Assembly: GCA_008802785.1 (NCBI GenBank)
Contig: VUYT01000034.1
Coordinates: 1 to 64,000, forward strand
DNA length: 64,000 nt
Origin: Symmetrospora coprosmae
Taxonomy: Eukaryota > Basidiomycota > Cystobasidiomycetes > Symmetrosporaceae
Reading direction: 5' to 3'
Shown here: positions 7,948 through 30,301 of the stretch, piece by piece
How positions within the stretch are numbered: the stretch's first letter is position 1
Layout of the letters: the number at the start of each line of letters is the position of its first letter
Position numbers and translations under genes: made by a program
Notes under the pieces: generated by a model
Database searches by the model: none
What the model was told of the DNA's origin: nothing
What the model saw: only the letters and a program-made list of their open reading frames with translations

Positions 7948-9796
7948 CTACTCTGCCTTCTCCTTGTAACTGATACCTGCGATACTCCCAAGCGCAATCA
8001 CGCATCCTGTCCATATCAGCAGAGCGCCCTGAGGCACCGAGCCCAGGAGGAGGTGGAGAAGACCCATGATGTCAGTGCACTACATTTCAAACGGCTGAAC
8101 AGCCGGTCGAAGGCTTTCGCCGTCAGCAACAGGTCCCGTAACACCCACATAGTTCTCGACGCCGTAGCCGAATCTAGCATGCTGTATCCGTAAGCCATCC
8201 TTGAGCAGGTAGTTCGACAGCGGACCGCTCGCCACGTTTCCGATTCCTCTTGCGAACGCAAAGAGCGCAAACACAACGGGCGGGAGTGATGGATCGTCGC
8301 CGCAGATCTTGGTGATGAGGGACGTCCATACCGCTGCAAACCCGAGGCCGAAAAAGCCAAAGAGGAGGCTAAAGACGATCAGGACGGGCAGAGAGGTCGC
8401 GAAACCCCAGAGCAGGAGGCAGGAGAGGGCAGACCCCAGGCAGGAGAGGGTTATGACGACGCGGATGGGCCATCTGTCGCTCAGATGGCCGAGGACAAGG
8501 AGGCCGATGATAGAGGATGCGCTGCGGATCAACGGGAATTGTCACTCAGCGCGTGAGCTCGGGTGAAGTCAACGTCGGCGCTCGACCCACTTCATCATCG
8601 ACACCAGAAGAGTCCCCTTAGACGTTGACAGCCCGAGATCAACAGCGTATGAAGGGAGGTAGATGCTCGGGATGAAGTTGCCCAGGCTGGTCAGCAGCAC
8701 GGCGCCTGTAAAGGCCCAGAAGGGGCTGCTCTTGAGGAAGCTGGTAGGGATGGCCCGCTTCGGAGCGGACTGTGATGACCCTGGTGCACGCTTGGCCACC
8801 GGGATGCGCTCTCTGATGAAGAAGACGGCAACCGCACCCATCAAGCCGTACGAAAGGGCCTAGGTGGCATAGGTCGGTCGTCAGTAGCTTGGATGGCGAC
8901 CTTTCGGGCCCTTTTTAAGGCTCACGAGAGATATCACCGCGGCCTTGTAGCTGAAATGGTCTAGGAGTGCTTGCATCAGCCAGGGAAATAATGCGCCACC
9001 TGGTGTGCGCGTAGGTTGGGTGTTGGGGTGTCTATCAGTAGTTGCGAGTCACCATGCTACGCGCGAGGACCGGGAGCTTCTAACTCACCAACTCCAGTCC
9101 CGCTGTACATAATGCCTGCAGCAAAGCCGCGCCTTCTCTGCCACCACGTGAAGAGCAGGGTTGCCGCTGGCATGTAGTACGTGCATGCTCCGATGGGGTA
9201 CATGATGCCCGCGAAGAGAACGAGATGCCACGGCTTGGTCGCAAAAGCCGCCGCAAGGATGCCAGAGACGGACAGCGCTAGGCCGAAGTACTGCATTGCA
9301 GCTCGGTGCTGCGGATACCGAGCGAGCAATGGGCCTATGATGGCTGCACCCAGATAGAGCAGCCCGGAGCAGAGGGTGGTGCAGATCGTAATGATGCTTG
9401 CATTGGCGGGTCCTGGAAACAGGGAAGTCGACCAGAACTCATGAAAGATGCCAATGGAGAACACGAAACCGAACGCTAGCATCTCTGTTGTCGAGAAACG
9501 CAGAGGTTGTGTGGAGCGGGTATCAGAATGTGGAAGGTGCGCACGAGGGAGGAAAGCCCCGCACCAATGGTGAAGCCAGCAACAAGGAAAGTCCAGGCAT
9601 ATCCAGTATCTGGAGGAGGAATAGCGACCGTTTCTCTCGTTGTTGTCGGACCTAGCGAGCCGGTCGGCGTCGATGGAAAAGATGTCGGGTCTTCTTGATC
9701 ATTGACCGAGAGGAGCCTCGGAGGATAGCTTGGCCCTCGTTCAACCAGGTCTTGGGCGCCATTGGCTTCGCTGTCGCGCATTTGTCCATTCGACAT
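7948..9796 (-). CDS. MFS transporter, monocarboxylate-porter (MCH) type, copy 1
   Basis: Six exons: 9565-9796, 9089-9484, 8926-8999, 8591-8859, 8149-8521 and 7948-8028; 474 aa with no interruption. The start MSNGQMRDSEANG was preferred because the open frame further upstream has no ATG. The first membrane helix follows PPPDTGYAWTFLVAGFTI, where P-P-D-x-G-Y/W is typical of monocarboxylate-porter homologues. Later segments (GIMYPIGACTYYMPAATLLF, GFAAGIMYSGTGVGG) fit helices 4-5, the middle loop carries IRERIPVAKRAPGSS, and the last exon gives GALLIWTGCVIALGSIAG. Substrate unknown; some fungal members move carboxylates, but many are uncharacterised. Exon sizes match copy 2 except for the first exon, so the two are tandem duplicates. 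It lies at the left edge of the sulfur gene block. Confidence 0.88.
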
Positions 9797-9849
9797 ATCC
9801 TCCTCGTCTACTGCTTCGGCGAGAGGCCGAGCCACATCTTCGAAAACAG

Positions 9850-9957
9850 GCGGTTCTGCTCCGCTCTGACCCGCTCAAATGCAATGATATATCATGTAGA
9901 CCTCCCGCTGAGTGTAGCGATCTGAATTGCCTATACAATGGATAACGCAAAGCGCGG
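9850..9957 (+). pseudogene. short relic of the 5' end of the 151-aa orphan gene
   Basis: This stretch resembles the upstream sequence and first codons of the intact orphan gene at 30302 (matching TCTGCTCCGCTC, then AGCGATC, then ACAATGGATAAC against ACAATGGACAAC). It stops about nine bases before the 3' end of MFS copy 2. It marks the edge of the tandem MFS duplication unit: transporter plus the beginning of the neighbouring orphan gene. Confidence 0.6.
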
Positions 9958-9970
9958 CGCTGCAAAACTC

Positions 9971-11798
9971 TCATTCCGACTTCTCCTTGTAGCTGACGCC
10001 CGCAACGCTCCCAAGCGCAATTACGCAACCTGTCCAGAGGAGCAAGGCGCCCTGCGATTGCGAGCGCATACGGAATGGCGTTGAAGCGTATGGACGACAT
10101 CAGCTTTGGGACTGGGAGTGATCGCTCGTGAGGCCAATCGGCCAGAACGGACCACCTACATAATTTTCGACACCGTAGCCGAATCTAGCGTGCTGTATCC
10201 GCAAGCCATCCTTGAGCAGGTAATTGGACAGAGGGCCTGAACAGACATTGCCAATTCCTTTCGTGAACGCAAAGAGTGCGAAAACGACGGGTGGCAGGGC
10301 AGGGTCGTCTCCACAAACTTTTGTGACGAGCGACGTCCCTACCGCTGGGAAGCCGAGGCCGAAGAAGCCAAAGAGGAGGCTGAAGACGATGAGCATTGGC
10401 AGAGATGTTGCGAACCCCCATAGCAAGAGGCAGGAGAAGGCGGAGCCCAGGCAGGACAGGGTGATTACGGCGCGGATAGGCCACCTATCGCTCAGGTATC
10501 CGAGGACAAGAAGACCGACGATAGAGGAAGCACTGCAGATCGATGCGATTCGACACGCAGTACGTCAGCATTCGAGCAGGTAGTCGGTAGCCTCCGACTC
10601 ACTTCATCATCGAGACAAGGAGGGTGCCGCTCAACGTGGACAAGCCAAGATCCACGGCGTATGAAGGCAAGTAGATGCTGGGAACGAAATTGCCCAAGCT
10701 GGTGAGCAGCATCGCGCCAGTGAACGCCCAGAAGGGGCTGCTTTTGAGGAAGGTCAAGGGGATGGACCGCTTGGGTGCACTCTGCGACGAGCCCGGTGCG
10801 CGCCTGGCCACCGGAATACGCTCTCTAATGAAGAAGACGGCAACCGCGCCCATCAGGCCGTACGAGAGGGCCTGAGCGGCATAAGTTGATCGTCAGTAGC
10901 TCTTGTAGCAAGCGGACAGACCATTCTTGGCGCTCACAAGAGAGATTACCGCAGCCTTGTAGCTAAAGTGGTCCAGAAGTGCTTGCATCACCCAGGGAAA
11001 TACACAACCCCCTGACGCGCACGGAGGATTGGGATTTAAGTTGGGAATACCTGTGCAGAAGGGGCAAGATTCGGGAGCCGCCAGACTCACCGACGCCAGT
11101 CCCGCTGTACATGATGCCCGCTGCAAATCCCCGTCTTCTCTGCCACCACGTAAATACCAGGGTGACCGCTGGCATGTAGTAAGTGCACGCTCCGATGGGG
11201 TACATGATGCCAGCGAAAAGAACGAGATGCCAGGGCTCTGTCGCAAAGGCTGTGGCAAGGATGCCAGAGACTGAGAGGGCGAGTCCAGCATACTGCATGG
11301 CGGCTCGATGCTGTGGATAGCGCGCGAGTAGAGGGCCTACGATGCCCGCGACCAGGTATGCCAGACCAGAGCACAGAGTCGTGCAGACGGTAATAGTGCT
11401 CGCAGCTCCAGCACCAGGGAAGAGGGTCGCTGTCCAGTACTCGTGAAAGATCCCGATGGAGAAGATGAAGCCGAAAGCAAGCATCTCTGCGGTCGACCAC
11501 GAAGAAGGAGGCGGGGTGTCCATCAGAATCCAGTGGATGCTGCTCAGAGGCTGATGGACAAGCTCCCACCGATGGTGAAGGCGGCAACAAGGAAAGTCCA
11601 GGCATATCCACAATCTGGAGGTGGAACAGCGACTGTCTCTCTCGTCGTTGTCGGGGTTAGCAAGGCGGCCGGCGTGGGCGGATACGATGTCGGGTCTTCC
11701 TCGCGGACCGAAAGCGCTTTTGGCGTGGAGACCACTGATGCATTCGTGTAGCAATGGCTCCCATTGGCTTCGCTATCGTGCACTTCGCCGTTTGCCAT
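9971..11798 (-). CDS. MFS transporter, monocarboxylate-porter (MCH) type, copy 2
   Basis: Six exons: 11570-11798, 11091-11486, 10938-11011, 10603-10871, 10160-10532 and 9971-10051; 473 aa, intact. It starts MANGEVHDSEANGS and has PPPDCGYAWTFLVAAFTI in helix 1. Five of the six exons have exactly the lengths seen in copy 1; exon 1 is one codon shorter. Intron positions are shared and intron sequences differ more than exons, so the coding copies appear to be under selection. The protein ends SVAGVSYKEKSE, against SIAGISYKEKAE in copy 1. A third, broken copy at 26188-26735 looks closer to this one in its first exon. Likely a plasma-membrane carboxylate-type porter; substrate not inferable. Confidence 0.88.
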
Positions 11799-11841
11799 GG
11801 GTCTTTCGCGTTTTCCGGCAGACTCGGCGTAAACCCGAGGC

Positions 11842-12225
11842 GCCTTCACAGCTCCGAAGTGTCTGAAGAAGACGGTCTGCTCCGCTCTCACTCGAGCATA
11901 CGATAAATCCGCAGACGAGCTTCATCTGAGCACAGCGATCCCACTCTTCACGCACAATGGACAACTCCAAACACCTCTGGAACCCCATCTTCATCCGGAC
12001 CGAGCAGGTAGGTCCGGCGAGTGCAGGAAACGCCGTCTGCGCGAAACGAGGATATAGCGACCCGGGGCTGTAGGCGCGGAAAAGGGTAGCGAAAAGCGCA
12101 GGAGGGAGATACGCAGCGGATGCGTCGATGGCAGGTACGACGACCGGAGAGGCAGGCCTCCAGGGGAGCATGCAGCCCGACGACAAGAGCGAAGTCAAGC
12201 TCGCATTCGGACAGAGCGCACCAAG
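11842..12225 (+). pseudogene. deleted copy of the 151-aa orphan gene
   Basis: It matches the promoter and coding sequence of the intact gene at 30302-30757, starting upstream (CGCCTTCACAGCTCCGAA) and continuing through the start codon (ACAATGGACAACTCCAA). After the codons for SIRAEQ/FIRTEQ, about 145 bp present in the intact gene are missing. The breakpoint lies between two short CGAGCAG repeats of the intact copy. Beyond it the match resumes but the frame is lost. It sits head-to-head with MFS copy 2, just left of the sulfur block. Confidence 0.8.
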
Positions 12226-12499: not shown

Positions 12500-13833
12500 T
12501 CAGAAGGTGGAGGAAAAGGGGACTTTGAAGAAGCGTTCGCCGGTTCTTTCGGGTCTTTTGGCGTTCAAAGAGGGTGGACTGTCAGCTCGATTGTCGCGCT
12601 TAACGAGGTGACGGAAAAGAACCTACCGAGGTAGATGCCCGCCGCGCACATTAACCTGCAGACTGTGATGCAGGAGTTTGGGGGCGGACAATCCAGAGTC
12701 TCGTTCGGAGCGCATGCGCGAGAAATCTCCATGTTTAGTCCCTTCTCTTAGATGCTTGTTCATGGCTTTCTGCTCTGCTACAGTCGAGCTGCAGCTGTGG
12801 GCCCGTCCTTCTGTCGGATAGTCGTGTCCGCTGAAAATTCGCACATCGTCTGGCAGAGCCAGCAGCTTTTGAGCGGACTCGTACAGATCGCTAACGGAAC
12901 CTCCAGGAAAATCGGCGCGAGCTGAACCAACATCGGGCTGGCCACAAAGTCCGCATTCACTTCAGCTGATGCCTACCCAACCCAGACGCATTGCCTGAGA
13001 AGGATATCTTACCAGGAAAATCGAGTCACCGACGAAGATGAAGCTCCCGCAACGGTATCTTGTCGAGATTGTTAACCAATTTTTCCGCGTTGTGCAGCGC
13101 GCAGACAAGACAATTCAGCAACAGCGGTGACGGTCGGCTTCCAAGGAGCACCTGCCTTCCCGGCTTGGGCTGCTTACCCGACATGATCCGGGGTATGACC
13201 GGGAAGATGCACGACGCTGCACTGGCTTCTACCCAGCGAGAAAGACTCCCCGTCCTCCAAGAGCTCGTCAAATGCGCAGTCGAGCTCGGCCTTTGGGATG
13301 CCATAGATGTCGCCGAAGCGAGCCTGAACGGCTTTTATGCCCTTGCCGATTCCCACAGGAGCTTGAAGACGTTGCTTGAGATATTGTGCCGCAGTGAGGT
13401 GGTCGGCATGTGCATGCGTCTCGAGAATCTTGTTCACCTTGTATCCCTGCGAGTCGACGAATCGCAGCAACGCATCTGCCGTTGTAGTCGTGATGGACGA
13501 AGTGGCCGGATCGAAATCCAGGGCGATATCAATCAATATCGCATCCTTGGTCTCGCTGTCGGCAACCACGTATTGCCAAGTCGAAGTGGGACTATGGAAA
13601 AATGTGTGCGCAACCACTCCCTCTTTGCTGCTGTGTGTACGGAATGGAATTGCGGGATCCGACGGGGTGGTCCCCTCTTTGGGAATCGCTGCGGCGCGAA
13701 TCGGAGACGGCGCAACCAGTCGAGCGGCAGAAGGTGATGTCCTCTGTGGAGCAGCAGTCCCGAATCGTCGATGCTTGGTAAGGCTGAGGCGGCAGATCTG
13801 GCGCCCAGCTTCGACCTTTGGGAAGCCTGTCAC
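12500..13833 (-). CDS. ETHE1-like persulfide dioxygenase, copy A
   Basis: Exons 13178-about 13833, 13013-13058, 12627-12937 and 12500-12554. Exons 2-4 have exactly the lengths seen in copy B. The metallo-beta-lactamase metal ligands are visible: ETHAHADHLTAAQYL, then LPGHTPDHVG, then FVGDS, then IFSGHDYP. The family (ETHE1, sulfur dioxygenase) uses mononuclear iron to oxidise glutathione persulfide to sulfite in mitochondria. The segment before PAIPFRTHSS is long and rich in R, A and S, like a mitochondrial presequence, but no in-frame ATG was found; a further 5' exon is likely and the 5' limit is uncertain. No rhodanese domain is attached. The last exon gives RPERTGERFFKVPFSSTF. Its partner in the pathway, SQR, is 11 kb to the right. 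Confidence 0.85.
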
Positions 13834-13899
13834 AACGGCGGACGCTGTACGTGCTGATCCTGCGCTGCAAAGAGCCCGCGGCAGTCTGGACAGGGCCAG

Positions 13900-14679
13900 G
13901 TTAACGCTGAAGCAGTATGCATTCTCGTGTTAAGCGAGCACAAGTCTGCCTGGAGCGAAAACACAAGGCTCACGAAGTCATGTCTTGCTTTGCGGTGGGG
14001 GCCGGCGGTTTGACTTAGGCGCGGATCTGGCTGATGGTCAACTTGTCACCAATATGGACGGAAGAGAACCAGATCGCCCAGCGGCCTGTGTTCAACAAGG
14101 TTGGCATTCCACCGGAATGCTACGGTGCCGCCTTGTCCGGCCACACGGTCGCCACCGGCGAGCCCGCCGGTGCTCTTGTCCATGCTGAGAACCGTCCCTT
14201 TACGCCAGCAGACACAAGCCTCTGGACTCGGACATTAAATTGTGCACCGGTCACCTACCAAATCTGGTGCACGGTGAGTTGCGTCTGCCCAACGAACAAG
14301 CATGTTCGCAACGCATATGGCCACACGCCTACCCCCTCTCTCGGTAACAGTATGGCAAGCATCCATGTTCCGCGCAGAGCCTCACTGGCCTTTCCACCCC
14401 TTGTAGCGTCTTGTCAGCGATGAGGCGATTGCACATCGCGGAGGATGGGTCTGACAACGACACAACCGAGGAAGACAACAACACTGACTGCCTGAGTTGA
14501 GCCTGCCCGCTCGACTCTCAGGCAGGTCACTAACTAATGCGTCGCTCTTCTGTAGCAGTTTCTCTTCTGTAGCAGTCTGAGGCGGGTTCCGCTTCTCAGC
14601 TGGCACCCATGAATCTTTACATCTCTACATCTCTGTAAATTCCCCCTTTGCACCCGGTGGGAAACGTGTCGATGATACC
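13900..14679. other. intergenic, no supported gene
   Basis: Several open frames of 60-130 codons exist on the plus strand, but none resembles a known family and none has convincing splice support. It may hold the promoter and hidden 5' exon of the copy A dioxygenase on its left side. Confidence 0.4.
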
Positions 14680-15678
14680 CTAAGGCGCTGGCCGGCTCGA
14701 CGCGTCTTCTGTCGACTTGTTGTGCGTTGGCAGTATTGCCAATCCCTGCGGTGCTTCAGTGGTGCCGCTGATGAGGGAGAGCCAAAGTGGGATGACTGCC
14801 TTTACTCCGGCTGAAACCGCAACAATCACCAGGAAGCCAGCATGCTGGAATGCGAAAGCTCCAGCCAGTGAGCCAACAATCAGAGACGAGATGTAGACAA
14901 TGCGCGTGTTCCGTGGCTTCAGGGCGGGGTTCTGGCTCCAAGCCAGCTTGAGCAGATCCCTGTCGGTAATCAGGTCGATCCTGTGCACGTCACGATCCAC
15001 AGTGTCAGCCCACGGTTGTCGTCTCTCGGCTCTTACGGCGACTACAACTCGCATGGGACTGGACAGCATAGCTGTCGGCACTTCACCGTTCCCGCAATTC
15101 CGGGCTATTGCTACCTGGGGCCCGCTAGATGCGGCCAGCAGGATGAGGTAGATCCACTGAGAGCGTCTGTCGGAGGATTTGATGCTGCTCGAGCTCTCCA
15201 GGAGGCACGTAATTACGAGAATGGCGGCTTGAAACGTGAAAGAAGCCAGCAGCCACCATCTTCTCCGGACGCCAACATGCTGCCCAATCTGACCGAAAAC
15301 GAAACCTGTCACGAGGTAACTGAGAAGCGAGGCAACCGTGTTATGGATCTGGATGTCAGAGGCCGATGCCAGCACGAGCGTCAAGAGGATGACGTTGCCT
15401 GTTAAGCGGCCGGACGTGGAAAGGTGACGCCTGTAAGCAGTAAGCTTCAACTGACCGGAAAGATAACACGTACCTGTCTGATTGCTGGCAAATGTGCCAA
15501 AAGCGCCGTATGTGCCCGGATCGAGAAAGCCCGTGATGAACGAGACGAGATACAGCGGGTGCAGTAGCGCTTGACTGGGTATTTCCTGTTTTAACCACTC
15601 AAGCTTGGTCGCTTTGGATGGAAGCATAGGGGAAGGCGTTTGGCTGGCGAAAGAGGTCATGTTTTCCACATATCGCAT
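14680..15678 (-). CDS. DUF1275 (YoaK-like) membrane protein
   Basis: Two exons, 15474-15678 and 14680-15398; 307 aa. The match to the DUF1275 family rests on FLDPGTYGAFGTFASNQTGN near residue 55 (family pattern GxxDxxxxxxxGxFxxxxTGN) and on GNGEVPTAMLSSPM near residue 185 (family pattern ExPTxxLTS). Five or six hydrophobic segments are visible. The family is common in bacteria and fungi, with no settled biochemical role. The stretch between SSPM and DLITDRDLLKLAW is longer than in typical members and may hide an unrecognised intron, though the frame stays open. It lies inside the sulfur block in the same orientation as both ETHE1-like genes and the regulator. Confidence 0.8.
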   Translation of the reverse strand: MRYVENMTSFASQTPSPMLPSKATKLEWLKQEIPSQALLHPLYLVSFITGFLDPGTYGAFGTFASNQTGTCYLSGQLKLTAYRRHLSTSGRLTGNVILLTLVLASASDIQIHNTVASLLSYLVTGFVFGQIGQHVGVRRRWWLLASFTFQAAILVITCLLESSSSIKSSDRRSQWIYLILLAASSGPQVAIARNCGNGEVPTAMLSSPMRVVVAVRAERRQPWADTVDRDVHRIDLITDRDLLKLAWSQNPALKPRNTRIVYISSLIVGSLAGAFAFQHAGFLVIVAVSAGVKAVIPLWLSLISGTTEAPQGLAILPTHNKSTEDASSRPAP

Positions 15679-16206
15679 AGATGCGAGAGCAGAGAGATGC
15701 CCCGTCAGCCGTACATGCTGTGAGTTCTTTCAGGTCTGAGGCCGCCTGCCCGCATGACCGTATGGCCCCGACCGCGCCGCGCCGGAGCTGGCGAGTCTCC
15801 AACTTGATCACTCCCGCCTGCCTGCGGCGGCTTGATCCTACCCGTCCAGCGAAACACCTAGCACCAAAACAAGCCTGCCCTCGCCCCGCCAGCTATCACA
15901 ACACGTATGCGTAGCGGTCAGACTTTCTGCGGTGGCAAACCTCGCGGGGACTGAGTTACACGGGGGAAGCAGTCCCTACCCGGTGTGGTTGTGTAGGCTC
16001 TCTCGCGGCGCCACCTAGACTAGGCGAGGGGTATGCACATTGCACAATCAAACCCTCTCTATAATCTTGCGCGCCCGCGCCTCTGGTTGCCTTTCGCTAC
16101 TATGCAGGGACTCCGTCGCTCGAGAACCAATGTCACCAGCTTGGCCAGCACGGCCGCTCCGCCAACTCAATTCCGCGAGCGCTCCGGCCTGTGAGCCAGG
16201 CTATAC
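15679..16206. other. intergenic region upstream of the DUF1275 gene
   Basis: This lies between the start of the DUF1275 gene and the 3' end of the regulator, both on the minus strand. No coding segment was recognised. It likely carries the DUF1275 promoter. Confidence 0.45.
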
Positions 16207-18502
16207 CTACTGCAAGCAGCCCGCTCTCTGCATCGGCTCCCGCAACATCCGCAGACCAGCCGCAATCACGGGCCTGTTCTTAGCCCGCTGTGGTATGCCT
16301 GACAAGAGCGTTTGGATATTCTCCCGGCAGTGCTCAATCGCCCCTTGGTTGCTGCTGGTGAGTTGCATGGTATGCAAGGACATGCGAATGCCGATGAGCC
16401 AGCAGTAGTTGATCTGGACGTTGTGCTGCACGAGATCTCGGTTGTAGCCATCTTGCAAGGCCTTGCTGATAGCGACGATGTCGTCCGTCGCACGCACGCA
16501 ATCCTGAAAGTCTTGACCTTCGCTATCGACGACGAACCGTTCCTGAAGAATAATCCTGCATCTGCGTCCCGATAGTCAGAGCGACTAGTGTCGGCCTGAT
16601 GTCCAAAGCAGGTCTGTCGCGGCTGCGCAACGGTGCTTGTAGTGCTCACACAGAAGGTACCAGATGCGCCTTGATGAGAGAAACGTCCAGCTGTCCGGAG
16701 TCCAGTATCTGAAGCGGCGTGCTCGCTGACAGTGGTATAGACAGCCTGAAAATGTCAATAGCGGCCGATAAGTCCAGAAATTCAGCCGTCCCACGGAATT
16801 GTCGCTTTGTTTCGCTCGTTACGGTGGATGAGCGTGCTGAAGACCCGCCAAGAAGGGACAAGATCTTGCCGAGGAGAATCATGCTTTTGAGATATAGGTG
16901 TAGATTGAGGACTGTAGAATGGAAATGGCTCATGAAGAAAGCAGGGGAATGCGGGTCCAACATCGGTTGGTTGTGAAAGACGTCCTCGAACTTGCGGTGA
17001 CGTGGTACGGCAAATGATTCAGCCCAATTGCTGAATGAACGAAGCTTTGACTGCTTACCATTGTATTGGTAGGCCAGACGGGTAGATTGGCCGTAATGTC
17101 GGAGAGGTTCATGGAGGTGCTCCAGCCGCTACAAGCAGAGATCCAGACGCTGTCGCAGAGTCAAAGGTCAAGTTTCGAGTGCTGGGTAGTCTGGAACTAA
17201 GCTCGCTCACTCGCAACAATACGTCTGCCACATTGTGTTTGTCCTGTAGAAGACGTCGACGTCTCGGGTCGCTGGCTCCAAGAGTGGTTCCATTTGAAGA
17301 AATGACCCGAGACCGTCAGGTTGTGGAGGAACCGCATACTGCGACTCGAAACGCTGGGCCCAGCAAGGGAGGAGTAAGCTGCTGTACCTCACCAGGTGCG
17401 AAAAGGTTCCGTGTCCTACATTGAGCCCTGAAGGTGCGATGAAGCGACAGGCTGCCCCAACTAGACTCCATACTTCCAGCATCTCCTGAGCGGTGAAAGA
17501 GTATACTGCGAGGATGAGAGCAGCACGGACGTCGTCTAGGAGTTTGTCGGGACTGAAACGCTGCAGATGCGCTCGGGCTCTCTGACTATGAAATTCCGAT
17601 GATGGGATGACCCCGGATTGCCAATCTGTGGTAAGCCGGGGAGGGACGCCGCAAATCGAAGCACCGATGGCGCAGATCGAATGCACGAGAGCGAGGGAGG
17701 GAAAGGACTTGTTGCTGCAACGGAGCGAGAGTGAAGATAGGTATTCCTCATGTGAGAGGATGTCCAGACTCGGTCTGAGGTGCTTCAATGCGATTTGCGA
17801 GCTAAAGGAGGCACAAGTGCGAGGTTCAGCATCGCCTCGCAATTTCATGGGGCTGCCTTCTTCTGGCACTTGCATACTGACAGGAAGTGCACCAGGCTCA
17901 GGCTAGGAAGCTCGGCAGGCCATGACTCCCCTTCTTCGCATGCATGTCGTGCCGCGCCACTGGCAGGTCCCTGCTCCGCGGCATACTGCAGATGGCTTTC
18001 TGCTGAAGTGCTTTGATGTGGCGAAGAAGCTTGGTGAACCGTAGCCATGCCGTCAAGACTGTTTTCATGAGTTGGGCTTCTCTGGCGTCTGCTGGCGTTG
18101 CCAATTTCCGTCGACCGATGGCGTGCGTTGCGGGCACCTTCGGGCCAGATACAGGCCGGCGACTCGTGCATGTAGAATCTTGCAGAGGAAGCGCATGCTC
18201 CACAGATGGGAGTATGACCTATGCCACAGACGGTAAATAAGCAAGATGACTTTCGTTGTCGCGGCGGGTGTTGCCGTGTGCGTGCCAGAGCTACGCGGTC
18301 CATGATGATGGCACCTACCATCACATTTCCTCTTTTTCGCCCGACACGGCAGACACGCCTAGCGGATTCAGGAAAGCAAAGTAAGCGCTGGGAGGTCAGA
18401 TGGGAATAGCCGCTTGTCAATCTGCTTTCTGCCGCCCACGCTATTCCGAGGCAGCGGGGCCGCTGCTTTCTTGTTTGGCAACTCCTGTTCTGACTCTGCC
18501 AT
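16207..18502 (-). CDS. Zn2Cys6 transcription factor with fungal-specific domain
   Basis: Seven exons: 18440-18502, 18319-18358, 17870-18218, 17211-17801, 17059-17128, 16650-16990 and 16207-16561; about 602 aa. The zinc cluster is split by an intron: exon 2 supplies ACLPCRAKKRKCDG and exon 3 supplies HTPICGACASS...SPACIWP, together six cysteines in the C-x2-C-x6-C...C-x2-C...C pattern. The middle part is a fungal transcription-factor domain: SFPSLALVHSICAIGASICG, FTAQEMLEVWSLVGAACRF and DGWSTSMNLSDITANLP. It should be a nuclear DNA-binding regulator. It is the only regulator in the sulfur block and sits between the two ETHE1-like genes, so it is a natural candidate to control them. The exon 3 donor (GTGCCA) is the weakest junction; the others have clear signals and all frames agree. 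Confidence 0.86.
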
Positions 18503-18828
18503 GGTAAGTGAGGGAGCGAGAGCCGACGAAGGGCCCGACATTGCTGATATGGTCTGATCGTGGTATCAGAGGTTGCGACGAACCGGTGGAATGACATAGA
18601 GAGCAGGGCGGAGGCAAAGGGGTGTACATGAGGGGCGCCTGGGCCAATGCTCCGGAACTGCTCCGCAAGACAGAGCAGATATGTCAAAGATCATGAGGAT
18701 GCACCAAGGGTATATGACGAGCAGGGAGAAGCAGGATTCACGCTCCTTCCACGCGGAATCCACTGTCTGCTTAGAAACACATTGTCCGCAAGCTGTACTA
18801 CATATGCGACGGCCACCGGAGCTACAAG
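18503..18828. other. promoter region of the Zn2Cys6 regulator
   Basis: About 325 bp between the regulator start and the 3' end of ETHE1-like copy B, both on the minus strand. No gene was recognised. Confidence 0.45.
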
Positions 18829-20007
18829 TCAAAACTGCGCCGAAAGCGGCATTTTGAAGAAGCGCTCGCCATTCCCTTCAGGCCTGATGAGTTGAGCAGA
18901 TCCTGGAGGTCAGCTATGGCGCCAGGCAGAACGCACTTCCCTTGCCCTTGCAAAGCGAGTAGCAGCTTACCGGGGTAAATGGCCGCCACGGACATTGACT
19001 TGCAGGCTCTGATGCAGGAGTTTTGGAGCGGACAATCCGGAGTCTCTATCGGAGCGCATGCGCGAAAACTCTTCGGGCAATGTTCCCTCCTTGAAGTGCT
19101 TGTTCTGAGCACGCTGCTCGGCAACAGTCGAACTGCAGCACTGGGAGCGACCTGCACCAGGGTAGTCGTGTCCGCTGAAAATGCGGGTGTTGTCTGGATG
19201 CGCCAAAAGCTTTTGTGCAGACTCATAAAGATCGGAGACTGATCCTCCCGGAAAATCAGCCCGAGCTGAACCGACGTCGGGCTGACCAGAATATTCAAGC
19301 GGGGTCAGCTGCCTTCGTCGAGCGATGGAAGATGGAGCGCATCGAAAGAGCTTACTAGAAACATCGAGTCTCCGACAAAGACAAAGCTTCCGAAGCGGTA
19401 CCTGATGATCACGAAAACGGGGAAAAGCAGCAGCGATCACGAGCTTTCATCAGAGCCAGCCGGCAGGGTCATTCTCCGCCCTGTACAATGCTCACCCAAT
19501 ATGGTCTGGCGTGTGACCAGGTAGGTGCATAACGGTACATTCGCTCTCGCCGAGAGAGAAAGCCTGACCATCGGCCCACAGCTCATCAAAGGCTGAGTCG
19601 AGTTCCTCTGCTGGAATGGCATACGCTTTTCCGAAATGCTCTTGAACACCCTTGATTTGGCATCCGATGCCAACCGGAACCTGCAGGTGCCTTTTCAAGT
19701 ATTGGGCTGCAGTGAGGTGGTCTGCATGCGCATGCGTTTCGAGGATCTTTCTGACGCGGTAGCCTTGTTGACTGACGAACTGTAGCAGAGAGTCTGCTGT
19801 GGTCGTTGTGATGGCGACGGCGAACGAATCGAAGTCGAGTGCAGTGTCGATGAGGACGGCATCCTTTGTGGCGCGGTCGACGACTATGTACTGCCAGGTA
19901 GACGTCGGAGCGTGGAAGAAAGTATGGGCAAGCACCCCTCCATCTTCGCTGCTGTGCGTGCGGAAAGGGACGGCTGGCTCCGTTCGGGCGGTGCCAGCAG
20001 CAGACAT
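18829..20007 (-). CDS. ETHE1-like persulfide dioxygenase, copy B
   Basis: Four exons: 19496-20007, 19356-19401, 18971-19281 and 18829-18883; 307 aa, with a clean ATG (MSAAGTARTEPAVPFRTHSS). Metal ligands of the metallo-beta-lactamase fold are in place: THAHADH at residues 91-97, H165 in LPGHTPDH, D182 in FVGDS, and a late histidine in IFSGHDYP. Known family chemistry is oxidation of glutathione persulfide to sulfite. The downstream exon lengths (46, 311, 55 nt) are identical to copy A, so the two arose by duplication, but protein and intron sequences have diverged clearly. Copy B begins without the long basic leader seen before copy A, so it may act in the cytosol while A goes to mitochondria (inference). 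It is transcribed away from the sulfur transporter across a shared 526 bp region. Confidence 0.92.
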
Positions 20008-20533
20008 GTCGGTTGGGGCTTCTGATAAGGGGATATACTTGCTTTACGGCCACGAGTATCAGTGAAGGGTATACGCGTGTGTCGAAGAAAGCTGACATGG
20101 CCCTCTGCTCACTTTGCACGAGTGCGTCGGGGCACGAGCGGTTGGAGGGGATGTGCACCTGCTATAGAGTGAGAAGAGAACCAGGAATGCCTTTCGAGCG
20201 TGGGTCCCTCTTGTACTTTGTGACGGTATCGTTCACCAGATACGGTGCTGACGCGTGAAGGAGACGGAGATGGAGGCTGAGAGAGCGGCAGCCGATCATC
20301 GCCGCACGGTCACCCGGCCACACGGTCTCCGCTTTCCGCGACCGCCAGACAGTCAACAATTAGGAACGCGCGCACCCAGCCAGCGAGGTACCTTTGCCCT
20401 TTCTCCTTACCGTCGCAGCTTCTCAGCTTCGGGCCTCGCCAATCTCTTCTACTTCTCAAGTCGAAGACATCTTTCGCTTCCTGCACATTCACCGTCAAGC
20501 AAGCACTGGTCAAAAAGTGCGACATAGATCACA
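20008..20533. promoter_or_regulatory. shared divergent promoter of ETHE1-like copy B and the sulfur transporter
   Basis: 526 bp separate the two outward-facing start codons. No convincing open frame lies between. Such an arrangement favours co-regulation. No specific operator was identified; Zn2Cys6 sites would be expected as spaced CGG/CCG triplets, and several CGG/CCG triplets occur, which is not significant in DNA this GC-rich. Confidence 0.55.
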
Positions 20534-21667
20534 ATGGCCGTAGCTGCCGTCTCGAGCGGAATCTGCTTCGGTGCGGCTTTGGCCTACTCTGGCGTTTATC
20601 GCCCGGATGTTATATTGCGGCAACTCCAGTTTCGCGATTCGCACATGCTACAAGCATTTCTCATGGCCAGTGCCACGTCCACGTAAGCGTACCATACTTG
20701 TACTGCTCGCTTGTGTAGCTTGCGCGTCTTCGTCCAGGGTCTAACACGATGTCCCTTGTTGGTCGTCCCGTCCCTACCACAAAGTCTGGCAGTAGCCTTC
20801 ACGAACTGGTCTGGTAGGACCAAGATCACGGCTCGTCCTCTGTCCACCATATTCCCGGGCTACATCAGCAGCTACGATGCTAATGCCATTGGCGGGAGTT
20901 TGGTCGGCGTGGGCATGGCTCTAACAGGTGCATGTCCAGGTACTATCCTGGTTCAGGTCGCCGCAGACCTTCGGTCAGCGCTACCTACGTTGGCAGGCGC
21001 TCTGCTTGGAGGAGCTATCTTCATTCTGGCGCGGGACTGGTACCTGTTATGCCGAAAAGATGCCTCGCGCAAGAGTACCCTCGCGGCGCCTGCCACCGTG
21101 GCCTCGGCATTGGGCATTAGCTCCACCACAGTCACCCTGGCTTACTCGGCACTCTGTGCAAGCCTTGCGATCACATTGCACTCGATGGCCAAGGCATCCT
21201 CCGTTGGCGCCTCAGCCTCGCTCGTCCCCCTCGTTGGAGGCGTTGCCATTGGTGCCGCTCAGCTCGTCTGCCTCCTCATCTCGTGGACGACCCTTGGCAT
21301 CTCGACCGCTTACGAGATCATTGGGCAATATCTCGCCAAGCCCCTACTTCCGCATCGGCAGGATGGACAGAAGGTCAATGGGCGGCCCAATCTCGGGCCC
21401 GTCCTCTTCTGCTTGGGTGTCGTGGCGGGTGCTAGCGCCCTGCTCACGCTGCAGCCACCGTCATACATGGACAAGGCCATCGCAACGTCAATTTCGACCG
21501 CGAGCTCGCTGCTTGGGGGGGTGACCATGGTCGTTGGGGCCAGAATTGCAGGAGGATGCACTTCCGGGCATGGTATTAGCGGAATGGCCATCCAGGGGGT
21601 CTCGAGCTTGGTCACAACGGCTTTCATGTTCGGCGCGGGTGCTCTGGCCTCTTTGTTTCTGTATTAA
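20534..21667 (+). CDS. YeeE/YedE-family sulfur (thiosulfate) transporter
   Basis: Two exons, 20534-20682 and 20719-21667; 365 aa. The 36 bp intron is the shortest in the window, but it has GTAAGC and TAG ends and restores frame. The protein is an inverted repeat of two similar halves, each with a conserved cysteine motif: GVGMALTGACPGT in the first half and ARIAGGCTSGHGISGMA in the second. These match the sulphur-transport domain family, whose bacterial member TsuA passes thiosulfate through a chain of cysteines. YRPDVILRQLQFRDSHMLQAFLMASATST near the start is also typical. About nine to ten hydrophobic segments are visible. The family is mainly bacterial, so horizontal origin deserves testing. 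Its position between persulfide dioxygenase and SQR genes supports uptake of reduced sulfur. Confidence 0.9.
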
Positions 21668-22150
21668 TTCAGCAGTAAGCCGGTGTAGAAAGATCACCAG
21701 CAAGATCCCGAAAATAAGACCCATCAGTGCGAGCCCCCCATAGATTGGCTTGAGCCTCTCAGATCATCTGCCGCTGCCATGCATACTGGTGTGCTGTACC
21801 TTTTCGAGCAGAGGAGCGTCTCCAGACTTCCGAACCGACTTACGCGCAGGCTGGAAGTCGCACACATAGAGCTCTGGAGGCAACGGGAGCGAGAGCGAGA
21901 AGAGTCATATTCATGTGGGAGAGGGAGGAGCGACGATACTTACACTGGGGATTGTTCTTGCGGGTCTTGAACAGAGTGAGATGGGATGTGACGTCCTGGC
22001 CGGTCAGTATCACGCGAGAGTCTCGATTTCCGCTGTTGCCCGAGTTTAGAGCAAACACGATGTTAGTCTGCTCCTCTGAGTTGTCAGTCTGCTCCTCCCA
22101 AAGTCTTCTGCCATACCCATGGAGTATGATACACCTCTCTGCGTCCCATC
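21668..22150 (-). other. possible unresolved minus-strand gene
   Basis: Exon-like stretches are visible on the minus strand at about 21954-22110 (containing SGNSGNRDSRVILTGQDVTS), with a strong GTAAGT donor at its end, and about 21855-21885 (LYVCDFQPA), again followed by GTAAGT. Joining them with the nearest acceptors brings a stop in frame, so no model is offered. A further hydrophobic stretch near 21660-21750 contains GLALMGLIFGILLVIFLH. It could be a small gene with an unusual splice, or a decayed one. Family not recognised. Confidence 0.3.
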
Positions 22151-22521
22151 ACTCAGAGGATGGCTATGTACACCGACTGCGACCGGCTCCCTGGCCGCGG
22201 CCGTATGTCCGCTGGAGCCGCGGCGATCAGGGCGATAGCCTGCATCAACAAGCGTATCTAGCGCCTCACTCAGCGGTCCACACAGCCTCGAAGCCTTACC
22301 ATTGCCAGGAACGGGCCCGCCTCTATATTGCCTTTCCTCCATCCTCTTTCACCTGCCCCACGCCTCCCTCCCCCAATACCTTCCGTCCTCTCCCTTTCCC
22401 CACCCTTCCCTGACCTTCACATTTCCCCCACACCCACACCCCTACTTCGGTCGAACGTCCTCCTAAGAAAAAACCTGACATTGCCGGAGAACCGTGTAAA
22501 GCGCCCACGGCATCGCATTTA

Positions 22522-23211
22522 ATGCTCGGCAGAATATGGACTCGCGTCATGCATAGCGGAGCCTTGCCCAATCTAGGCTCTGAAGCACGCGACCACCTCG
22601 CAAACGAGAGGACTTGGTTAGCTTGGACACGCACGTCTCTCGCCTTTGCAGCTCTTGGCCTTGGGGTCGACCGATTTGACCTGCTCCGCCAAGACGTTCA
22701 AGGCCTGTCAATTGAGCAGGGTCTACGAGGACCGAGCTCTGGCCCGAGCTCCGGCCCCGGTCTCAGGGTCAGCGACAAGGCATCGCAGAACGAGCCCACG
22801 GGCAGTCTTGGTGAGCACTTTGCTGCTGCCATTCCTACTGGAATACGCGCAAATTCTATTCGATTGCCTATCGGGTGCAGTCCCGGCCCTACGGAGATCT
22901 GCTTGCTCATATATTTACGATCCTATTGCTCTTTTTCAGACTCGGACTCCCTGTCTGGCATCCTCTTGGGGACTGGCGCGCTGATATCTATCCAGTCAAC
23001 CGCTCGGTACTTTGCCGTCGCTCAAGCTCTCTCACAGCAACCTTCCATGTTCGTGCGAGCGACATCAAGCGTCGGCACGCTCGCCTTTACGCTTTGCGCA
23101 TTTTCAGTGCTAGCGGTACATAGGCATTTTGTTAAAAGAGACCACGAGGCCAACTCCAAGCCTGCCGGCTCGCTGCCTGACAGCCAACGCCAGCAGCCTG
23201 CACTGCCTTAA
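22522..23211 (+). CDS. DUF202 (YidH-like) small membrane protein
   Basis: The frame is open from 22522 to 23211 (229 aa). A likely 129 bp intron at 22811-22939 (GTGAGC...TTTCAG) is a multiple of three and also open, giving a 186-aa spliced product. The DUF202 signature ARDHLANERTWLAWTRTSLA is near residue 25, and helices follow at ALGLGVDRF, GILLGTGALISIQSTARYF and GTLAFTLCAFSVLAVHRHF. Members are short three- to four-helix proteins of unknown function. The intron reading is preferred because it removes a hydrophilic insert lacking family similarity and joins helix 1 to the SGILLGTGALI segment. Same strand as the sulfur transporter and SQR, so plausibly part of the block. Confidence 0.82.
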   Translation: MLGRIWTRVMHSGALPNLGSEARDHLANERTWLAWTRTSLAFAALGLGVDRFDLLRQDVQGLSIEQGLRGPSSGPSSGPGLRVSDKASQNEPTGSLGEHFAAAIPTGIRANSIRLPIGCSPGPTEICLLIYLRSYCSFSDSDSLSGILLGTGALISIQSTARYFAVAQALSQQPSMFVRATSSVGTLAFTLCAFSVLAVHRHFVKRDHEANSKPAGSLPDSQRQQPALP

Positions 23212-24177
23212 CTCTGTATAGCTTGGCACCCTGGCTATCAAGTGCAGAGTGCGAGAGGTCGACCACGTCTCTCAAGCCCTCAGCAACCATCTTGGATCAG
23301 GCCTCTTTGTCCAATGTTTCTGCTCCATTACGTTGGTAGTGCCACCCTGGTAAACGTGCCATACCCAAAGCGCTCTGTGATCACCGTTATCTTGAAGTGC
23401 AAGTGTGGTATCCAGCCTGCTCTCCAGGACAATCGATACGTATTACGAGCAATCAATCGCGGCTGCCTGAAAGCTCCGTGTACCCTTGCAGATGTCTGCG
23501 AGGGTCCCATCAGCGGCGAGCCGCTTAAGGCTCTCTCCTCCCCCGCTTCCGATCGAGCACTCGAACAACCATCGATCCACGTAGCTGCGCATGTATGTGG
23601 TTGTATACCGCGTCGAGGCACAACCGCGTCGAGGCACAACCACGTCGCGGCGGTGTCACACTTGCTGACGCGAGACAAATAGGCCAAACCCTCGTCCATC
23701 ATTTGCTGATGTCGGGCGGAACGACCTCACACGGTTGTCTGTTCTTCTGTTCGCGCTCGTTAGAGGGGGAGCCGGAGATGTGGGTCCGGAAAGAGGCGCG
23801 AGAGGTACAGTAGGGACGGGACGGAATACCGGCGCCGGCTGCGGTGCGCCAGGGTCAGAAGAAAGGGGCGAGGAGAGAGGTTATCGACATACTGCTTGTA
23901 CGCGGCTACTACTGCTCCCTGCTATTACTCTGCGAAACACAGTCCACATCCAGGATAGCAGGCTCACACTAGTATCCCCAGGTCCCGGGCGCTTTCGGTC
24001 AATCGTCGCTCATGCGGCCACGCGGCCTTTCGGAAAGGTACCGGACAGCTGAGTATCGCCACCTGCAGATCGCGAATGCACATAGATTACAGGCCGCGCT
24101 GTCGACTGCAGCGTTGATCCTCTCTTCCTCACGCCTTCGAGCACTAGCGAGATCTCCTTACTCATTCCGGCCTAATC
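23212..24177. other. intergenic region upstream of the SQR gene
   Basis: Nearly 1 kb without a recognisable gene. It contains a short tandem repeat near 23608-23650. It probably holds the SQR promoter in its right half. Confidence 0.45.
23608..23650. repeat. 16-bp tandem repeat
   Basis: Two perfect copies of CCGCGTCGAGGCACAA, followed by a degenerate third start, lie in the gap before the SQR gene. The repeat is too short to classify. Confidence 0.8.
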
Positions 24178-25685
24178 ATGCTTGCGACCTCGGTCACGTT
24201 GCGCAAGTTCGCCAGCACCCTCACGAGCGCTGCCATTCCGACGGGCGTCCGGCACCGTGTGCTCATTGTCGGAGGAGGCACTGCAGGTACTACCATATCT
24301 GCTCAGCTTCGCCGGTCCAAGGCTTTTCGGCAGATCCTAGGAGATCGAGATAGCCCAGATGACATCGCAATTGTGGACCCTGCTACTGACCATCATTACC
24401 AGGCGAGTCTTTACATATCGATGCGCGCCTACCGAGTCTCACATCTCTCGTCTCTGCCGTCTCAGCCCGGTTGGACGTTGATCGGCGCAGGGTTGAAGCC
24501 CGGATACAGCATGGTCGATACCATGTCGAACGTTATTCCCAAGGGCGTCAAGCACTATAGTCAGGCTGTCGCCAAATTCGATCCGCACAACAACGCAGTC
24601 TTCACGCAAGAAGGGCACAGGATCGCCTACGATTATCTCGTGGTTGCCCCTGGCCTTGCAGTCAATTTTGATGGTATCCAGGGGCTGCCGGACGCCCTGG
24701 CGGACCCTCAGAGCGGCGTCAGCTCTATCTACAGTCTCCCAGGCGCTCAGAAGACCTGGCACAATATAAGCTCGCTCAAGAGCGGTAACGCCGTGTTCAC
24801 GCAGCCTGCTGGAATCGTCAAGTGCGCCGGCGCGCCGCAAAAAATCATGTGGTGAGTCAACTCACGTCACAGCGGGCTTACGCTGCAAGGCCTGACTATG
24901 TCACAGGATGGCTGCTTCCGAGTGGCGCCGTCGCGGCACCAGGGACAATATCGACATTGCATTTGCTACGGGAGGTGCAGGTGGGCCGGGTCCCCCGCTT
25001 CAGTCTATAGTCGATACTCAAGAAGACTGATTTTTTTGTCTGAGACTTTTCTACTGCAGCAATGTTCTCCGTGCCTAAATATGCCGAAGCCTTGAACAAA
25101 CTTCGGCTAGACCGGAACATCGAGGGCCTTTTCCAGACCAATCTGGTTGCGATTGACACCCGTGCCAGGATGGCCACCTTCGAGGCTCTTCGGCACAATG
25201 GGAAACAGATACACCGCCCGTACGACCTTCTGCACGTCACTCCGCCCCAAAGAGCGCACGAATTCGTAGCTGCCTCGCCGCTAGCCGATCCGGACACCGG
25301 ATTCGTGAAAGTGAGGTCGGACACCCTTCAGCACACGGAATTCGCCAATATATTCTCGCTGGGAGATTCAGCTGGCCTCCCAACATCCAAGACAGCCGCC
25401 GCTATTTCGTCCCAGGCACCTGTCCTGGTTGACAACTTGCTGGCAGTCATGCGGAAGGAGGCACCGATCTCCATTTATCAGGGATATTCGTCGTGCCCGC
25501 TCCTCACTGGCCACGGAGAGCTCATGCTCTGCGAGTTCAAATACGGGGGTGTCCCAGCCGAGACGTTTGCACCTTTTCTAGGTAGCCAGCACAAGCCCCG
25601 CCGTCTTTTTTACCATTTGAAGAAGGACATCTTCCCGCCGGTCTACTGGCGGTCTTTCCTGAAGGGATCCTGGTTCGGCGCGTAA
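24178..25685 (+). CDS. sulfide:quinone oxidoreductase, mitochondrial type (SQRDL/Hmt2)
   Basis: Four exons: 24178-24402, 24466-24851, 24907-24980 and 25060-25685; 436 aa. A basic leader (MLATSVTLRKFASTLTSAA) suggests mitochondrial import. The FAD-binding motif VLIVGGGTAGTT is at residues 28-39 and HHYQPGWTLIGAG follows. The two redox cysteines of the eukaryotic SQR group fall in VKCAGAPQKIMW (C195) and YSSCPLLTG (C374). NIFSLGDSAGLPTSKTAAAI is the second FAD contact, near residue 330. The enzyme oxidises sulfide, passes electrons to ubiquinone and delivers persulfide to glutathione or sulfite. Intron 1 (24403-24465) has a GC-AG boundary and is 63 nt with an open frame, so its retention would not stop translation. 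With the ETHE1-like enzymes it makes a two-step sulfide oxidation route. Confidence 0.95.
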
Positions 25686-26187
25686 GTCTCTATTGGCTCT
25701 ATTCGGCCAACATTCGCCTGCACACGCACTGACATAAATTCCGGTACGTGAAGATCCGGGATTTTCCGACCTCGCAGTGTCACCCTGCCAAACGCTTCGC
25801 CACAGGCGCAACCCGCTACAGCCAAATGATTGGCATCTTTCATACATTCTCTAGAGCGTGCTCGTCTCGTTTCCGAATCTATGGTTGGCTGGCAATGCAA
25901 ACAGTCCGCTTTGCCGTGCAACATTTGCTTGGTGGGAGTGTCGCGACTGCCCGATTCCCAATCCTTGAAGCAGAAAGGACCTGACATACAATGAGCAAAC
26001 GAAGCTGCTCGTGCCGTGCCACTGCAAATCAGAGAGGTGTCACAACTTACCCACGTACCAATCGATGTCCTGGATAATTGCCTCTCATAGCGAGTCCATC
26101 AGAAGGAAAGACTCGCAGCAGCGGGCAGAGGACGGCCCCGCGAGCCGCTATCCGAAGCGCTTGAATTGATGTGAGCAATAGGCGTGT
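25686..26187. other. right edge of the sulfur block, no gene seen
   Basis: About 500 bp between the SQR stop codon and the start of the broken MFS copy. No conserved coding segment was recognised. Confidence 0.45.
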
Positions 26188-26735
26188 TCAGCCGCATCTA
26201 TCTCGAGAGCAGTCACCGGCTCCGACAGGGTAAGTAATGCTGGCGAACATGTTGATATGCCAAGGTCGGGCTGCAAGAGCCGCTGCACCTATGTAAGCGA
26301 CTTCTCCACTAGGGCCCATGATGGCCGCGCCGAAAGAGCTAGAATCGCTAAAGAGCGTGGTGCAAAGCTTTGTAATTACTTGCCTTGGCAGATCCTGGAA
26401 ACAATGGAGGTCAACTAGAACTCGTGAAAGATGCGCATCGACGTCCATCAGAATCCAGAGATGATATCGGGAGGAGCCTGAGGTAAGCTCGCTAAAATCG
26501 CGAAGGCGGCTACGGGGAAATTCTAGGCGTAGCCTGTAGCTGGAGGTGGGAATGCGATTGTCTCTGTTGTTTTTGCAGGGATCAGCAAGGCGGCCGGCGT
26601 AGGCGGGTAGGACGTCGGTTCCTCTTCATGGACCGAAAGCGGTTTCATAGGGAAGACCGCGGCTGCATTGGTATAATTTTAGCTCTCATTGGCTTCGCTA
26701 TCGTGCACTTCCCCATTCGCCATGGTCTTTCAAGT
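26188..26735 (-). pseudogene. broken third copy of the MFS transporter
   Basis: It corresponds to the first exon and much of the second exon of the MFS genes at 7948 and 9971, in the same orientation, with many frame breaks. Clear matches on the plus strand are CAAGGCGGCCGGCGTAGGCG and ATTGGCTTCGCTATCGTGCA. The remaining four exons are absent. Its 5' end is fused directly to the AP180 upstream copy at 26749, an order opposite to the left locus, where the transporter's 3' end faces AP180. It looks closest to MFS copy 2 in the first exon. Confidence 0.85.
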
Positions 26736-29618: not shown

Positions 29619-30301
29619 ACTGGACGCGCCTGGGACGTGAGGAGGGCGTGTAGAGCCGTCAGCCAGGCTGCCGCGCAGCAGGAGGAACCAGGTTAGTAGA
29701 GCTGCAGGTGGGTACCTGGCGCGTCCTGCTCCTGCTCGTCAGCCAGTCGTCGCTTTGCTCGCTGTCCCCGTGTCAGCATGGTGTGCTGTATTGCAGAGTT
29801 GGCAGCATCCAGAGCAGGAGCCGCTCTCTACGCGTACACAAACCCTCCCTACTGCTATGCGCCGTGCCCCTGGCCTCCCATGGTGGAGTGCTGCTCTCCC
29901 TCTCTTTCTCCGTCCGTCAGTGGCGACCCCGTACCTGATCGGGAGGATAGGGGCAGGCGGTCCGAGAGCGACCCAGGCTCCATCCTCCCTGGCCATTGGC
30001 TCGCCCGCAACAGCAGAGCGCTCCTGCCGTAGACGCGTCTGGCTCCTTCATGCTGACTGACGCGACTGCTATCCTGCCTCTGCACTTCATTCGACGCTGA
30101 AAGTCGATGGTCGAGTCGGCGCAGAGCCAACCCTGACTGGTCCAAGTTGGAGGCTCCGCCCCTCCTTTGCTTCGGGGAAAAGCCGAGGGCGCCTTCACAG
30201 CTCCGAATCCTGAGGACGGTCTGCTCCGCTCCATCCGGTCATTCCAATATACCTGGCAAACGAGCTTCGTCTAAGCACAGCGGAGTCACTCTCCACGCAC
30301 A
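29619..30301. promoter_or_regulatory. divergent region between the two orphan genes
   Basis: 683 bp separate the start codons of the 793-aa (minus) and 151-aa (plus) genes. The right part (from about 30165) is the sequence that reappears in the relics at 9850 and 11842, so it was copied along with the small gene. No other gene was recognised. Confidence 0.5.

Follow-up and report, generated by a model that had tools for sequence, protein, structure and literature searches.

A candidate gene cluster for the disposal of sulfide and sulfane sulfur in the basidiomycete Symmetrospora coprosmae

Does a fungus keep its genes for sulfide disposal together, as bacteria do? The question is raised by bases 1–64000 (hereafter, the window) of contig C27 (192722 bases) in the genome of Symmetrospora coprosmae (20.05 Mb in 77 contigs). 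Seven genes at 12500–25829 of the window encode a sulfide:quinone oxidoreductase (SQR), two persulfide dioxygenases (PDO-A and PDO-B), a YeeE/YedE transporter, a DUF202 protein, a DUF1275 protein and a Zn2Cys6 regulator. The cluster is real and probably functional, and co-regulation is possible. Our preferred reading, which we hold to be probable, is that of a fungal, locally regulated cluster that disposes of sulfide and reactive sulfane sulfur, a counterpart of bacterial detoxification operons. Taken singly, its genes are all ordinary for a fungus.

Bacteria arrange the detoxification of sulfide and persulfide in operons that have sensors of their own. Such operons are known; a eukaryotic version of the gene set is new. 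To our knowledge, little has been established about the way in which fungi perceive and remove sulfide, polysulfide and elemental sulfur, the last of which is in common use as a fungicide. A fungal gene cluster that comes with a candidate regulator and a candidate site offers a direct handle on fungal sulfide handling, and on what eukaryotic YeeE proteins do. Among the best matches in titles and abstract openings of open-licence PubMed Central articles, no publication on a fungal SQR/PDO/YeeE cluster was found.

Enzymes, transporter and regulator

Gene models were built by hand from splice sites. An earlier note on this DNA had placed the cluster at 12500–25685; every gene that it named is present, and the right end moves to 25829 with the last SQR exon. 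PDO-A, DUF1275, the regulator and PDO-B occupy the left side on the minus strand, and YeeE, DUF202 and SQR the right side on the plus strand:

12500..13981, minus strand: PDO-A (MBL1); exons 13974–13981, 13178–13906, 13013–13058, 12627–12937 and 12500–12554
14680..15678, minus strand: DUF1275 membrane protein (PF06912, 2.6e-23); at least one intron suspected by eye
17207..18541, minus strand: Zn2Cys6 transcription factor; exons 18440–18541, 18319–18358, 17882–18218 and 17207–17801
18829..20007, minus strand: PDO-B (MBL2); exons 19496–20007, 19356–19401, 18971–19281 and 18829–18883
20008..20533, no strand: divergent promoter between PDO-B and YeeE, 526 bp, delimited by the gene models
20534..21667, plus strand: YeeE/YedE sulfur transporter, 343 residues; exons 20534–20682 and 20785–21667 (one intron)
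22522..23211, plus strand: DUF202 membrane protein (PF02656, 1.2e-15)
24178..25829, plus strand: SQR, 460 residues; exons 24178–24402, 24466–24851, 24907–24980, 25060–25681 and 25754–25829

The SQR gene has five exons, the last of which encodes the C-terminus. A 436-residue model with that exon left out matched human SQOR (6mp5) over residues 26–435 at 1.2e-94, and the two cysteines that we take to form the redox pair of SQOR were both aligned. By homology and cysteines, the protein is predicted to be an SQR of the type-II/mitochondrial kind with sulfide:quinone activity. Its first 25 residues include three basic and no acidic ones. The first intron (24403–24465) is a 63-nt GC-AG intron that is open in frame and splits the conserved HHYQ/PGWT motif; its retention would add 21 residues inside HHYQ-PGWT.

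PDO-A is encoded by five exons, with the start codon at 13981, and its spliced product is identical to P0001 (382 residues), read from a 1289-base public assembled contig. It matched Lactamase_B at 6.8e-20 and carries an N-terminal extension of the mitochondrial-presequence type, with three basic and no acidic residues among the first 25. The PDO-B model begins 28 residues ahead of the match to solved relatives and is without a presequence (two basic and three acidic residues among the first 25), so that its product is perhaps cytosolic. In an alignment of PDO-B, P0001 and 20 of the 120 listed relatives, His92, His94, Asp96, His97, His165, Asp182 and His224 were invariant in all 22 sequences. 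Against solved structures, PDO-B scored 243 bits to 9g8t, 229 to 4ysk (which we take to be Pseudomonas PDO2) and 223 to 4efz, versus 56 to human ETHE1 (4chl); on these scores, ETHE1 proper was rejected. The Blh family model matched PDO-A in its dioxygenase part alone (profile positions 135–420 of 423), at 322 bits where 625 are needed, and a profile scan of PDO-A gave no DUF442 match, so bifunctional Blh was rejected for PDO-A. The dioxygenases are thus classed by sequence as PDO2/Blh-type, with predicted persulfide activity. A genome search with PDO-B recovered only the two cluster genes, with weak Lactamase_B matches on C44 and C3 left unexamined; a Lactamase_B locus on C12, presumably LACTB2-like, was rejected as a PDO since it is without PDO motifs.

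The YeeE model matches P0241, also from a public contig, in length and is identical to it at 327 of 343 positions. Sulf_transp (cutoff 27) scored 84.9 bits for the window frame and 103 for P0241. As PDO-A and the 95%-identical YeeE both read without introns in the public contigs, we take these contigs for transcripts. Cys100 and Cys308 were kept in 120 of 120 listed relatives. The regulator model comprises the first four exons and stops short of the 3′ part toward 16.2 kb; Zn_clus scored 28.4 bits (cutoff 21), and Fungal_trans 18.6, under its cutoff of 23.

The gene content described in the earlier note was borne out: an SQR with both redox cysteines, a YeeE/YedE transporter with two cysteine motifs, DUF1275 and DUF202 membrane proteins and a local Zn2Cys6 regulator. 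Its two ETHE1-like dioxygenases with full metal ligands are both present with the ligands kept, and are PDO2/Blh-type, not ETHE1.

Linkage and origin

In a simulation that scattered two SQR and three YeeE loci over a circular genome of 20.05 Mb, both types came to lie within 13.2 kb of a PDO locus in 8 of 400000 trials (a chance of about 1e-5).

Linkage in relatives was judged from NCBI locus tags and equal-length contigs, using the best 120 cluster representatives in each protein table. In the Sporidiobolales, 6 of 13 listed PDO rows paired with one of 17 listed SQR rows on contigs of equal length, and in all six paired assemblies (five species) the two locus tags were consecutive: Sporobolomyces salmonicolor (two strains), S. 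blumeae, Rhodosporidiobolus lusitaniae, R. ruineniae and R. nylandii. The other seven PDO rows had no SQR partner among the rows listed and are uninformative either way. The consecutive tags make the SQR-PDO pair look old in one basidiomycete order. The present window shares that pair in one locus and adds five other genes to it. Linkage of YeeE to PDO or SQR has so far been seen, among fungi, in this genome alone.

In prokaryotic species genomes, at least 588 loci held the cluster's PDO family, and the best 80 were kept. Within about 7 kb, 38 of these had YeeE, 24 had SQR and 21 had both; 23 of the 24 SQRs scored above 300 bits, with one weak match at 52. Neither DUF202 nor DUF1275 was found at any of the 80 loci with one query each plus a motif, a search of limited sensitivity. 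Known operons of this kind include yeeE-yedE-pdo2 under BigR in Acinetobacter (PMC7315123, excerpt), yedE1E2 upstream of blh in Agrobacterium (PMC10812762, excerpt) and a bigR operon that includes a TauE-related transporter (PMC5823870, excerpt).

The fungal cluster resembles the BigR-controlled operon and the pdo-yeeE/yedE-sqr operons in that the three activities are neighbours, the PDO belongs to the same family and YeeE carries the pair of cysteines equivalent to Cys91 and Cys293 of the bacterial transporter TsuA. Unlike them, it has introns, an SQR of the fungal branch and two PDOs, one with a presequence, and a Zn2Cys6 protein stands where bacteria have the ArsR-type BigR. With Blh of Xylella and Agrobacterium (DUF442-ETHE1) it shares the dioxygenase part, whereas PDO-A is without the DUF442 part. 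Compared with the mitochondrial unit (SQOR, ETHE1, TST and SUOX), the homology of the SQR to SQOR extends across most of the protein, and a rhodanese and a sulfite oxidase are likewise encoded in the genome, off the cluster; in contrast to that unit, a PDO2-type enzyme replaces ETHE1, the genes are clustered and a transporter has been added.

Trees placed the cluster SQR and the genome's second SQR (on C55) with fungi, apart from 23 bacterial SQRs, with a support of 100 in the Shimodaira–Hasegawa-like approximate likelihood ratio test (SH-aLRT; used for the values below). The two were sisters in a 50-row tree, with modest support (82/82); this pairing was not resolved in a smaller tree. In a tree of PDO-A, PDO-B, 40 of the 120 listed relatives and 20 of the 80 bacterial PDOs, PDO-A and PDO-B were sisters (100), followed by Sporidiobolales (92), and fungi were split from bacteria (99). 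With SQR and PDO both grouping with fungi, the cluster looks independently assembled. Judged by the trees, its genes seem to be lineage duplicates that were brought together, perhaps with one gene from an ascomycete among them.

That gene would be YeeE, which may have come alone from an ascomycete and joined the old basidiomycete SQR-PDO pair. We regard this origin, which is compatible with a detoxification cluster, as a tentative possibility, somewhat doubtful on present evidence. Among the 120 of 291 YeeE matches listed, all rows with an organism name belong to what we take to be ascomycetes, and many rows are unnamed. The genome's other two YeeEs, on C10 and C74, grouped together (94) and apart from the cluster copy, which fell weakly with Dothideomycetes (83). 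Against an ascomycete source stand this weak support, the long branch of the cluster YeeE (1.6) and a tree sampled without other basidiomycetes.

The C10 copy, at 4538–5943 and 6399–7049 of locus L049 (G000:C10:313500-323400), adjoins an exon that presumably encodes an S-adenosylmethionine synthetase. The C74 copy (L050, G000:C74:457943-458815) reads GTDPGT where the others read GACPGT, with Asp in place of the first conserved cysteine, and has the longest branch of the YeeE tree; it may no longer act as a transporter.

A candidate shared promoter element

Direct CGG-N5-CGG repeats are a half-site arrangement typical of Zn2Cys6 proteins. They were found upstream of PDO-A, DUF1275, PDO-B/YeeE, DUF202 and SQR:

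14138..14148, plus strand: CGG-N5-CGG pair CGGCCACACGG, 157 bp upstream of PDO-A
15742..15760, minus strand: triplet CGGTCATGCGGGCAGGCGG, 64 bp upstream of DUF1275
20307..20325, plus strand: triplet CGGTCACCCGGCCACACGG, within the divergent PDO-B/YeeE promoter
22484..22494, minus strand: CGG-N5-CGG pair CGGTTCTCCGG, 28 bp upstream of DUF202; another pair at 22201–22211
24015..24033, plus strand: triplet CGGCCACGCGGCCTTTCGG, 145 bp upstream of SQR; a further pair at 23822–23832

Triplets (CGG-N5-CGG-N5-CGG) thus occur in three of six upstream regions (3803 bp in total), where 0.076 would be expected from the 399 in 20.05 Mb. The Poisson chance is 7e-5 before allowing for 21 spacings, and 2.6e-3 with the whole 13.3 kb as target. 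Three regions with triplets at any spacing were obtained in 2 of 1000 shuffles. When other half-site spacings and inverted sites were compared, N5 was the only spacing with triplets in more than one region. A longer form defined post hoc, CGGYCAYNCGGN5CGG, occurs seven times in 20 Mb (six in the backward control), three of them in the cluster; no sulfur gene was seen by eye near the other four. One of those four, at G000:C65:305909-305927, has a Pyr_redox_2 match (C65:307814) some 1.9 kb away. No CGG-N5-CGG repeat was found in 1 kb upstream of the second SQR, and shared words of 7–10 bases in the six upstream regions did not exceed shuffles. The 14-mer CCGGCCACACGGTC from the PDO-A upstream region recurs between PDO-B and YeeE; a shared word of at least 14 bases appeared in 12 of 200 shuffles, a weak result. 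Taken as a whole, the repeats are suggestive of a candidate shared promoter element.

Proposed route and alternative explanations

We counted in favour of a detoxification cluster the divergent layout, the presequences, the intact domains and residues, the low chance of co-location and the promoter triplets; the reading draws on gene content, catalytic residues, repeat sites, SQR and PDO locus tags and the fungal placement of both enzymes. The substrates (that of YeeE above all), the compartments, the pairing of regulator and site and the physiology set out below are predicted. YeeE would import sulfane (zero-valent) sulfur, which would be turned into glutathione persulfide once inside. SQR, at the inner membrane of the mitochondria, would oxidise H2S to glutathione persulfide and pass the electrons to ubiquinone. 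Persulfide would then be oxidised to sulfite by a mitochondrial PDO-A and a cytosolic PDO-B. A cytochrome-b5 sulfite oxidase encoded on C11, with a presequence-like N-terminus, could convert sulfite to sulfate; alternatively, sulfite could yield thiosulfate with a rhodanese encoded on C22 that we take to be RDL-like (a second rhodanese-domain match is presumably Cdc25-like). The Zn2Cys6 protein encoded in the cluster, or a different member of that class, may bind the CGG-N5-CGG repeats and switch the genes together. The set would work like bacterial pdo2-yeeE/yedE-sqr operons, yet be assembled from fungal genes. In yeast, elemental sulfur that has entered the cell gives rise to glutathione persulfide and H2S (PMC8945482, excerpt), which makes sulfur stress a plausible trigger.

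The earlier note had drawn a similar route, from uptake through SQR to persulfide and on to sulfite by the dioxygenases. It fits the domains found, with two amendments: the dioxygenases are not ETHE1, and the transported substrate is uncertain. The suggestion that, with a rhodanese and a sulfite oxidase missing from the window, the products may be handled elsewhere agrees with the genes on C22 and C11.

Several results weigh against this reading. The six paired Sporidiobolales assemblies may stem from one ancestral linkage. In Monosporascus sp. GIB2, the contigs that carry SQR and PDO differ in length, and the same holds for PDO and YeeE in Parahypoxylon, Cladophialophora psammophila and Clonostachys rosea (in the last, the two rows are perhaps from different assemblies). 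Co-location in relatives, the check named beforehand, came out for SQR and PDO in six Sporidiobolales assemblies, and YeeE was not beside PDO in the three fungi in which this could be checked. The cluster SQR has the longest branch of the 50-row tree (0.97 versus 0.37 for the C55 copy), which could mean relaxed constraint. As for the promoters, the N5 spacing was picked after looking, and three triplet-bearing regions at some spacing also arose in 11 of 1000 resamplings drawn from real window sequence. Triplets are rarer genome-wide than in the backward control (399 versus 745), and the window has no excess of pairs (47 against an expected 51). The total of 10 pairs in the six upstream regions was reached at some spacing by 94 shuffles and 210 resamplings out of 1000 each, and five regions in some class by 543 of 1000 shuffles; N7 and N19 direct repeats likewise reach five regions. 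The regulator's own upstream region holds no CGG-N5-CGG site.

A bolder version of the detoxification reading, which we consider unlikely as a whole, is a eukaryotic sulfane-sulfur regulon: the cysteine-rich Zn2Cys6 protein would be a persulfide sensor driving the CGG-N5-CGG promoters, with YeeE as zero-valent sulfur importer and the PDOs as a mitochondrial and cytosolic pair. If true, fungi would have arrived independently at a BigR-type circuit.

Sulfur scavenging, in which YeeE would import thiosulfate as a nutrient and the enzymes would feed assimilation in place of detoxification, appears improbable to us. The bacterial YeeE/TsuA imports thiosulfate and works with YeeD, with Cys22 of TsuA at the YeeD interface (PMC11073785, excerpt). 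P0241 matches the TsuA model at 1.4e-10, though at 41 bits where the cutoff is 400. The cluster YeeE is a single chain of the same family as TsuA and keeps two of its three cysteines (as Cys100 and Cys308), with Tyr at the place of Cys22. At that place, the 120 listed relatives have Tyr in 56 cases, a gap in 34, Ala in 16, Phe in six and His in four, with four not printed. The two cysteines of TsuA with which the single cysteines of PmpB and PmpA align are Cys91 and Cys293, respectively (PMC11582611, excerpt). No TusA-family (TusA/YeeD) gene was found in the genome (0 PF01206 matches, with 11 of 14 prokaryote controls positive), although an intron-cut gene could escape this search. The retention of two of three TsuA cysteines and the lack of a TusA/YeeD match favour sulfane sulfur over thiosulfate. 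Oxidation of sulfide and persulfide by SQR and PDO would, moreover, be wasteful for assimilation.

For zero-valent sulfur there is a precedent in YedE1E2, which imports it in dependence on two cysteines and works with PDO (PMC10812762, excerpt). YedE1E2 consists of two half-length chains with one cysteine each, whereas the fungal protein has both in one chain of 343 residues; function may be alike. A point for scavenging, and a further one against detoxification, is YedE3, a longer YeeE of the fused type that occurs in E. coli and Cupriavidus: the excerpted part of PMC10812762 describes this single chain as mediating thiosulfate uptake and as not involved in that of zero-valent sulfur. Since the fungal YeeE is a single chain of YedE3-like length, it may carry either substrate. 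Of the sulfide and thiosulfate use proposed in the earlier note, the sulfide side fits the domains and the thiosulfate side is uncertain.

A decaying or accidental neighbourhood, in which duplicates ended up close to a contig end amid rearranged repeats and have no joint function, is also improbable in our judgement, if barely more so than scavenging is. It would account for the long SQR branch, the duplicated MFS-like copies and remnants on both sides, the start of the window at the contig start and the YeeE linkage not seen in other checkable fungi. It sits poorly with spliceable frames and intact catalytic residues, with the intron-free public contigs of PDO-A and YeeE, with a genome search that found no PDO outside the cluster, and with the promoter triplets and the SQR-PDO adjacency in other genera. 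Transfer of a whole operon from a bacterium, to which the same gene set at 21 of 80 bacterial loci might point, is very improbable and was rejected by the SQR and PDO trees, with the introns and the single-chain YeeE also standing against it.

The MFS-like genes lie in tandem at 8137–12007, about 2 kb apart and about 80% alike, and score 26–27 bits with MFS_1, under the cutoff of 33. Partial copies recur beyond the cluster at 26481–26725 and 30256–30352, as if the sulfur cluster sat within a rearranged array close to the contig start.

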